From positions 970,041 to 1,034,040 of the forward strand of contig NZ_BPIK01000001.1 of the NCBI RefSeq assembly GCF_026004075.1: a stretch of DNA of 64,000 nt. Reading direction: 5' to 3'. The translations under genes were made by a program, and so were the position numbers. The notes under the pieces are model-generated. The model was not told where the DNA came from and did not search any database. It worked only from the letters and a program-made list of their open reading frames with translations. Positions 38,165 through 40,265 of the stretch are shown here, piece by piece; the first letter of the stretch is position 1; every line of letters starts with the position of its first letter. The stretch comes from Meiothermus sp. Lineage in GTDB: Bacteria > Deinococcota > Deinococci > Deinococcales > Thermaceae.

Positions 38165-40120
38165 TTATTTGCGGGCTTCAACCCGCTGCTTCATCTCGTC
38201 TATTAGGGCTGCTATTGCCAGCGTCCGCTGCTCCTTTACGTGCCGCTCGCGCACATTAACCGCGCCAGCCTCGGCTTCTTTGTCGCCTACCACCAGAATC
38301 AGGGGGATTTTTTGCAGCTCGGCGTCGCGGATTTTGGCGTTCATGCGTTCGCTGCGGTCGTCAATCTCCACGCGGAGCTTGTTTTTGCGCATCTCGGCGG
38401 CTACTTTCTGGGCATACTCCAGATGCCGGTCGGCAATTGGCACAATCACGGCCTGGATGGGGGAGAGCCACAGCGGAAAGTCGCCGGCGGTGTGCTCCAG
38501 GTAAAACGCAAAGAAGCGGTCGAAGCTACCCATGATGGCGCGGTGGATCACCACCGGGGTTTCTTTTTCGCCTTTTTCGTTGGTGAACTCGAGGCCAAAG
38601 CGCTCGGGCACGATAAAGTCGAGCTGGTTGGTGGCGATGGTGTCCTCCTTGCCCAGCACGCTCCTGATTTGCACGTCGAGCTTGGGGCCGTAGAAGGTGG
38701 CCTCACCGATGCCCTCCACATACTTGGCCCCGGTCTCTTCCAGGGCCGCCCGGATGGCCTTGATGGAGTCGCGCCAGTTGTCGTTTTCCTCGCCAAACTT
38801 TTCGGGGTTGTTTTCGAAGTCGGGCAGGGAGAGGCGGAACCAGTAGTCCGAGATGCCGAAGTCCTTGTAGACCTCGTCAAAAAGCTGAATGACCCGGATA
38901 AACTCCTCGGTGACCTGGGCCCTCGAGCAGTAAATATGCGCGTCGTTCTGGGTGAAGCCCCGCGCCCGCGTTAGGCCCGAGAGGGTGCCCGAAAGCTCGA
39001 AGCGGTAGACCGTGCCGAACTCGGCCAGCCTGAGCGGCAGGTCGCGGTAGCTCTTGGGCCGGGCCTTGTAAATCATGTGGTGGTGTGGACAGTTCATGGG
39101 CTTGAGGTAGTACTCTTCTCCCTCAATTTCGATGGGGGCGTACATGTCGTCTTTGTAGTAGGGCAGGTGGCCCGAGGTGTAGTAAAGCCGGGCGTTGGCA
39201 ATGTGCGGCGTATACACATAGTGGTAGCCGTGCTCCTGCTCCTTTTTGTACATGTAGTCTTCCATCTGCTTGCGAATAAAAGCGCCTCGAGGCAGCCAAA
39301 GCGGCAGACCCTTGCCGACTTCCTCGCTGATGGTAAACAGATCGAGTTCGGCACCGAGCCTGCGGTGGTCGCGGCGCTTGGCTTCCTCCTGCTGCCAGAG
39401 GTAGTGCTCGAGCTCTTCCTTGGTGCGGAAGGCAATACCATAGATGCGCTGGAGCATGGGGCGGCTCGAGTCGCCGCGCCAGTAGGCCCCGGCAATGCCG
39501 GTGAGTTTGAAGTGGGGTGGAATGCGGCCCGTGCTGGGCACGTGCGGGCCCCGGCATAGGTCGGTGAAGCCATATGTATCGTCGCCCTGCCTGTAAAAGC
39601 TCAGCTCTTCGGACTCAGGCAGATCTTGGATGAGCTCGGTCTTGTAGGGATCCACGCCAGCATATCGCTTGAGGGCTTCCTCGCGTGGAAGTACAAAGCG
39701 CTCGAGGGGCAGATCGGCGGCCACAATCCGACGCATTTTCTCCTCGATGATTGGTAGATCCTCCTCGCGAATGGGCTCGGGAGCGTCAATGTCGTAATAG
39801 AAGCCGTTTTCAATCACCGGGCCAATCGCCAGCTTGACCTCTTCAGGTCTGTAACCCCGTTCGGTGTATAGCTCCCGTACCGCCTGGGCCATCACGTGGG
39901 CCAGGGTGTGGCGGAAAAGCCGGGCGTACTCGGGATCTTTTTCGGTCAGAATCCGCAGTTCGGCCTCGGGCGGTAAGGGCTTGAGTAGGTCGTACAGCTC
40001 TCCATTAACAATAGCGCCAATGGCAGCTTTGGCCAGACCGGGGCCAATGGCTTTCGCGGCGTCAGCAGCGGTGGCGCCGGATTGAAGTTCCAGTTTTCGT
40101 CCATCGGGAAGCACTACCAT
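38165..40120 (-). CDS. thrS: threonyl-tRNA synthetase
   Basis: The protein (about 650 residues) has an N-terminal TGS domain (VVLPDGRKLELQSG), the editing-domain HTLAHVMAQAVRELY and related motifs (about residues 73-230), and class II catalytic motifs. The zinc-site Cys lies in MNCPHHHMIYK near residue 334, and the anticodon-binding domain ends ALIDEMKQRVEARK. I prefer ATG 40120, with GAGGTGA directly upstream, over an in-frame GTG at 40126. Expression is probably controlled by attenuation: a promoter, a Thr-containing leader peptide and an intrinsic terminator lie in the 145 bp upstream on the same strand. Confidence 0.96.
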   Translation of the reverse strand: MVVLPDGRKLELQSGATAADAAKAIGPGLAKAAIGAIVNGELYDLLKPLPPEAELRILTEKDPEYARLFRHTLAHVMAQAVRELYTERGYRPEEVKLAIGPVIENGFYYDIDAPEPIREEDLPIIEEKMRRIVAADLPLERFVLPREEALKRYAGVDPYKTELIQDLPESEELSFYRQGDDTYGFTDLCRGPHVPSTGRIPPHFKLTGIAGAYWRGDSSRPMLQRIYGIAFRTKEELEHYLWQQEEAKRRDHRRLGAELDLFTISEEVGKGLPLWLPRGAFIRKQMEDYMYKKEQEHGYHYVYTPHIANARLYYTSGHLPYYKDDMYAPIEIEGEEYYLKPMNCPHHHMIYKARPKSYRDLPLRLAEFGTVYRFELSGTLSGLTRARGFTQNDAHIYCSRAQVTEEFIRVIQLFDEVYKDFGISDYWFRLSLPDFENNPEKFGEENDNWRDSIKAIRAALEETGAKYVEGIGEATFYGPKLDVQIRSVLGKEDTIATNQLDFIVPERFGLEFTNEKGEKETPVVIHRAIMGSFDRFFAFYLEHTAGDFPLWLSPIQAVIVPIADRHLEYAQKVAAEMRKNKLRVEIDDRSERMNAKIRDAELQKIPLILVVGDKEAEAGAVNVRERHVKEQRTLAIAALIDEMKQRVEARK

Positions 40121-40129
40121 AATCACCTC

Positions 40130-40163
40130 AAAAAAAACCCCGGCCCTTCAACTACGAGCCGGG
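40130..40163 (-). terminator. attenuator terminator in the thrS leader
   Basis: On the minus strand CCCGGCT pairs with GGCCGGG across an 11-nt loop and is followed by eight T residues, ending 10 nt before the thrS start. The CCC of its 5' arm also belongs to a competing arm, GGTTCTCCC, which can pair over nine positions with GGGAGAGCT upstream (two G-T pairs), forming an antiterminator. Confidence 0.87.
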
Positions 40164-40184
40164 AGAACCTCAGCTGCCTTGCGG

Positions 40185-40226
40185 CTAGAAGCTCTCCCCA
40201 GGTCTGGTAGTAGGCCGAGACCTCAT
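40185..40226 (-). CDS. thrS leader peptide (MRSRPTTRPGESF)
   Basis: A 13-codon frame on the minus strand, ATG at 40226 to TAG at 40185, encodes MRSRPTTRPGESF with adjacent Thr codons ACT ACC. The two Thr codons lie in the loop of a small hairpin (AGGTCT and AGACCT), whose 3' arm is adjacent to the antiterminator arm GGGAGAGCT. Stalling at Thr codons would therefore favour antitermination. The ATG lies 10 nt after the -10 box, so the leader mRNA is nearly leaderless. Confidence 0.8.
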   Translation of the reverse strand: MRSRPTTRPGESF

Positions 40227-40236
40227 CTTGTGTAGA

Positions 40237-40265
40237 AGTGTACGTCTGTAAAGGGGAAGCGTCAA
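40237..40265 (-). promoter_or_regulatory. thrS promoter
   Basis: TTGACG at 40265-40260 and TACACT at 40242-40237 (minus strand) are separated by exactly 17 bp. Transcription should start about 4 nt before the leader peptide ATG. Confidence 0.8.

Follow-up and report, generated by a model that had tools for sequence, protein, structure and literature searches.

A probable threonine-responsive transcription attenuator upstream of thrS in Meiothermus

Organisation of the thrS leader

The window, which is the whole 64-kb stretch of Meiothermus DNA analysed here, carries thrS on its minus strand, preceded by a promoter, a short open reading frame (ORF) with two adjacent threonine codons, an antiterminator, a terminator and a run of eight T (Table 1). 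The gene downstream of the leader is beyond doubt that of threonine–tRNA ligase. An earlier, sequence-only reading of this DNA had described a promoter with a 17-nt spacer, a 13-residue leader, a terminator and eight T on the minus strand, all of which we found in place. The leader RNA folds more stably than expected by chance (z = −3.5), and the attenuator arrangement is real. The ATG of the leader (40226) lies 10 nt 3′ of the −10 element, and the 5′ untranslated region is predicted to measure about 2–5 nt, making the message near-leaderless.

Table 1. Features of the thrS leader region, in positions of the window.
Feature	Position	Strand	Remarks
Promoter −35, TTGACG	40260..40265	−	TTGAC(G/T) conserved in relatives whose sequence extends to it
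Promoter −10, TACACT	40237..40242	−	17-nt spacer from −35; TA(C/G/A)ACT conserved
Leader ORF, MRSRPTTRPGESF	40185..40226	−	13 codons and TAG; frame, length and stop position kept in 21 leaders
Leader stop codon	40187–40185	−	
Regulatory codons Thr6 (ACT) and Thr7 (ACC)	40206..40211	−	Thr6 in 21/21, Thr7 in 18/21
1:2 hairpin around the Thr codons, AGGTCT/AGACCT	40200..40223 (arms 40223–40218/40205–40200)	−	−9.5 kcal/mol, z −2.0 in the window
Antiterminator 5′ arm, GGGAGAGCTTC	40188..40198	−	Leader codons 10–13
Antiterminator 3′ arm, GAGGTTCTCCC	40161..40171	−	Final CCC in common with terminator
Terminator 5′ arm, CCCGGCTC	40156..40163	−	From folding of the leaders
Terminator 3′ arm, GGGCCGGG	40139..40146	−	−16.7 kcal/mol in the window
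Intrinsic-terminator T8	40130..40137	−	T-run kept in 21/21 leaders
thrS ribosome-binding site, GAGGTG	40124..40129	−	Conserved in closest relatives
thrS, threonine–tRNA ligase	38165..40120	−	651 aa, ATG at 40120; TIGR00418, 661 bits versus cut-off 384

The antiterminator is an 11-pair stem in the window and reaches as many as 12 pairs in relatives; the earlier reading had correctly recognised this stem but, with nine pairs, had drawn it too short. The terminator is formed by eight pairs (CCCGGC..GCCGGG) followed by U8, and the two structures exclude each other through the CCC that they share. A long-range pairing between the leader and the 3′ arm of the terminator, seen in the minimum-energy fold, was rejected: it is possible only once the terminator has already been transcribed and, judged by eye, is not kept in the aligned sequences.

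Conservation of the leader

thrS was found in all 50 family genomes searched, and its upstream DNA was read in 22 genomes of Meiothermus, Calidithermus and g2 and in eight of Thermus. The leader arrangement precedes thrS in 21 of the 22. In the remaining one, a relative of Meiothermus (G011, locus L101), the promoter and a terminator-like hairpin with a T-run are kept, while the leader has been lost and reduced to two codons. The element is absent before thrS in all eight Thermus genomes read, where a −10-like TATAGT stands directly before the start of the gene instead. A covariance model (R1) built from the 21 leaders, including that of the window, matched only the thrS leader in the window's own genome.

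The sequence-only reading had proposed to compare the thrS leaders of Meiothermus, and this comparison yielded conserved Thr codons with synonymous changes and a covarying antiterminator. Codon 6 encodes threonine in every leader (ACT in 17, ACC in two, ACG in two) and codon 7 in 18; a single Thr codon is all that three leaders have (L093, L102 and L103). All other internal codons vary at the protein level, codon 5 with as many as eight different residues. Because Thr6 is held invariant through three synonymous codons beside a hypervariable codon 5, selection acts on the tRNA that is used and not on the nucleotides. Across the 21 leaders, 98% of the antiterminator cells are paired and three of its pairs have changed in both partners; its covariation score exceeded those of all 500 shuffles and of all slid versions. 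A GC-rich terminator stem and a T-run lie between leader and thrS in all 21; the stem shows no compensatory changes among them because its pairs hardly vary.

The 1:2 hairpin, which in the earlier reading held both Thr codons, is indeed present in the window and in most core Meiothermus leaders. It is absent or weak in several others (L091, L094, L096 and L098) and, with a mean z of −0.4 over the 21 leaders, is not conserved. Its 3′ arm stops short of the antiterminator arm, so that the two structures can coexist. Lacking both overlap and conservation, it was rejected as a working protector, and this part of the earlier description did not stand. No competing protector hairpin, an accessory of trp-type attenuators that the switch does not require, was found in the thrS leader. 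The hairpin is perhaps a site of polymerase pausing, but its role is doubtful.

Ribosome position and the control of thrS

We consider it highly likely, from the sequences compared, that thrS is controlled by ribosome-mediated transcription attenuation with threonine as the regulatory codon. Stalling attenuation through these codons had been suggested before, and both the conserved codons and the compensatory changes in the antiterminator favour it. From the established parts, their conservation and their geometry we infer where transcription starts, that the leader is translated, and that a stalled ribosome gives readthrough, in the following order. RNA polymerase would initiate a few nucleotides 5′ of the leader ATG, with a ribosome trailing it. 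When charged tRNA-Thr is ample, the ribosome would reach the UAG and mask the 5′ arm of the antiterminator, which forms the end of the leader ORF; the terminator would then fold and thrS would not be transcribed. When charged tRNA-Thr is scarce, for want of threonine or of the synthetase (ThrRS), the ribosome would stall with Thr6 in its A site and its front edge just 5′ of the GGG of the antiterminator arm. The antiterminator could then capture the CCC needed by the terminator, and the polymerase would continue into thrS.

The effect of ribosome position was modelled for the 21 leaders by a folding calculation in which ribosome-covered nucleotides were blocked; the calculation assumes equilibrium and ignores co-transcriptional folding. 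When the ribosome was taken to cover 10 nt beyond its A-site codon, as toeprints usually show, Thr6 was the last A-site position to leave the full antiterminator stem in nearly all 21 leaders, the contested CCC then pairing mostly into the antiterminator. This suggests that Thr6 is the position that matters, in agreement with its invariance. With the A site at Thr7 or at the stop codon, the contested CCC was predicted to pair mostly into the terminator. The regulatory codons are thus placed so that, in the model, a stalled ribosome would free the antiterminator arm and a finishing ribosome would cover it, provided that the reach is at most 10 nt; the model is sensitive to this value, and at 11 nt or more Thr6 too favours the terminator. 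With no ribosome on the leader, readthrough is predicted.

Modelled stalls at codons 2–5 likewise keep the antiterminator free, and the specificity for threonine would therefore be imperfect. The leader might then merely tune the general coupling of transcription and translation, any slowing of translation (at Arg or Pro codons, or under global stress) giving readthrough without threonine as the specific signal, and the Arg codons at positions 2 and 4 of the window's leader would suit such a role. However, codon 6 alone is invariant in the 21 leaders, while the preceding Arg, Ser and Pro codons vary freely, and in the sister attenuators described below the codon follows the identity of the gene. 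We therefore regard a purely general coupling as unlikely.

Two other explanations appear less probable still. ThrRS could repress its own messenger through a tRNA-Thr-like operator, with the terminator being incidental, as E. coli thrS is generally known to be controlled by its own product (mentioned in PMC2965389). The 9 nt between the T-run and the thrS start codon, however, leave no space beside the ribosome-binding site for the tRNA-Thr-like hairpins of an operator of the E. coli type, and the conserved Thr codons and the terminator–antiterminator pair would go unexplained. The terminator could also act as a fixed brake, with an untranslated ORF whose conserved sequence serves another purpose; the ORF is nearly leaderless and has no Shine-Dalgarno sequence, as one might expect in that case. 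Against this, the invariant Thr codon changes synonymously, and the pattern from promoter to ATG is enriched across the window's own genome (33 matches versus 4 in a reversed control), where its short ORFs hold matching codons. Least probable of all is a T-box or another tRNA- or metabolite-binding RNA: T-boxes are known to control thrS in Firmicutes, but a leader of about 100 nt, more than a third of it ORF, has little space for one, and the T-box that the sequence-only reading had named as evidence against itself was not found, an Rfam scan of the window giving nothing at gathering score (T-box and Thr_leader included) and only sub-threshold chance matches in the leader.

Leaders of related design and known attenuators

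Attenuation of thrS as proposed here would follow the same principle as the classical proteobacterial attenuators with leader peptides. The Rfam family Thr_leader, from gammaproteobacterial thrABC, also senses Thr codons by means of a leader peptide, though before another gene and with a longer leader that mixes Thr and Ile; the Meiothermus leader has no Rfam match. The E. coli pheM-pheST leader is of the conventional kind, having a ribosome-binding site as well as a 1:2 hairpin that competes, and is not homologous to the Meiothermus attenuator. What the two would have in common is a synthetase gene governed by stalling on cognate codons, pheST being named as such a case (PMC1262725). Among synthetase genes, leader attenuation is known or predicted for pheST in gammaproteobacteria and for trpS and leuS in Streptomyces (PMC1262725), and for hisS in Bacillus (PMC2965389).

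A close parallel in layout is thrL-thrS of Streptomyces lividans, where a leaderless transcript carries a Thr-Thr leader peptide (MKRVRPFLETTPGFVPAR) before thrS (PMC8079986). The S. lividans leader, from another phylum, is without a U-rich intrinsic terminator, whereas Meiothermus has a clear antiterminator, terminator and U8. The near-leaderless peptide, which had struck the earlier reader as unusual, has precedents in the leaderless leaders of S. lividans, one of them before thrS (PMC8079986), and leaderless expression is described as common in this phylum (PMC12340547). A literature search found no published account of the Meiothermus thrS element, which would extend leader-peptide attenuation of synthetase genes to thrS in this phylum on strong comparative evidence.

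Short Thr ORFs precede thrS outside the family too. They include MRRPASTTTTWGRGGS (L119), MAPFVTTTR, MAPRATTTR, MACCATTTQ and MALCATTAR (L118 and L120–L122), ORFs ending in TTRTPRGV or similar (L112–L115), and others ending in TTRTRG or TTRTRS (L132, L133 and L138); no U-run terminator is evident in L112–L115. Because such ORFs occur outside the family, some of them without an evident U-run terminator, the Thr leader may predate the switch in the form seen in Meiothermus, with a different output part. In distant relatives a CGA-ACN (Arg-Thr) codon pair also recurs in the ORF or stretch preceding thrS, usually a short way before a stop codon (L112–L116, L131, L132, L133, L137, L138, L142, L145, L150 and L151).

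In Thermus, R1 matched MLALEKKLGRRGVG, the homocitrate synthase leader, whose codons 6–7 are Lys-Lys and whose layout is as in thrS (E values of 3e-9 and above). The two leaders share a TTGAC promoter, a near-leaderless ORF, paired codons at positions 6–7, a G-run antiterminator arm and a CCCGGCC terminator; they differ in that one combines Lys codons with a biosynthetic gene and the other Thr codons with a synthetase. This lysine attenuator was reportedly demonstrated in experiments by Tsubouchi and colleagues in 2005. R1 also turned up one genome in which the leuS leader has a single Leu codon. A broader model (R2) found Arg-Lys codons before lysJ and Met codons ahead of metG in relatives, as well as Lys-Lys leaders of homocitrate synthase or a homologue of it. 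The Lys-Lys leaders occur in several genera, and MILSAKKPSAGRLV (L198) is the one in the window's own genome. In every one of these finds the regulatory codons agree with the downstream gene. In Thermus, metG (L210–L214) is preceded by a Met-codon leader ORF (e.g. MEAMKGMPRS) and a terminator.

Further candidates were picked by eye from the 33 promoter-to-ATG matches in the window's own genome and called by ORF and codons; GTG-start leaders with the same promoter pattern showed no enrichment there (11 versus 10 in the control). The candidates are MVWYTTTTS before asd (L233), MLRADNNL before the non-discriminating aspartyl-tRNA synthetase gene aspS (L222), MARRWFFG before pheS (L248), a Trp-rich ORF before trpB (L232), an aromatic one before the DAHP synthase gene (L225), Leu/Ile/Val codons before ilvB (L226) and LLL before leuC (L231); the homocitrate-synthase-like locus L198, found with R2, belongs to the set as well. 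Downstream genes were identified from family models, except pheS, which was recognised from reading its sequence and whose leader has no evident U-run. The leader of asd, a gene of the threonine pathway, recurs in 17 of 18 congeners with three to five Thr codons. With these roughly eight candidate leader ORFs, thrS would be one of about nine genes so controlled in this genome.

To our knowledge, few such attenuators have been described in this phylum, and the sequence-only reading had thought the thrS case unusual there. The roughly eight additional candidates and the lysine version in Thermus speak against the latter view: the mechanism is a textbook one, and the thrS attenuator is not an oddity of its phylum. 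That a single genome has about nine candidates suggests that this lineage routinely senses amino acids through ribosomes that stall on nearly leaderless messages. The combination of leaderless initiation with attenuation offers a clean system for study, directly testable in Thermus, which is easily grown and transformed. A bolder reading, towards which we are somewhat sceptical, is that the Thermus/Meiothermus order employs one modular scaffold, in which a near-leaderless ORF has its regulatory codons some 13 nt ahead of a G-run arm and a CCCGGC terminator follows. Re-aimed by codon swaps (Thr for thrS, Lys for homocitrate synthase, Arg-Lys for lysJ, Leu for leuS and Met for metG), this scaffold might be the chief means of adjusting synthetase and biosynthesis genes to amino-acid supply, much as T-boxes are in Firmicutes.

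Two further observations were made at these loci. A palindrome, GGTATACC, recurs in the promoters of the asd leaders (L261–L278), of leuC (L231), of ilvB (L226) and of homocitrate synthase-like genes (L201 and others), and also lies within the asd leader ORF; its recurrence suggests a transcription-factor site. Its long form, TTGGTATACCAA, is found just twice in the genome. At prfB (L230), the usual CTTTGAC programmed frameshift site is present, with a near-leaderless start upstream.
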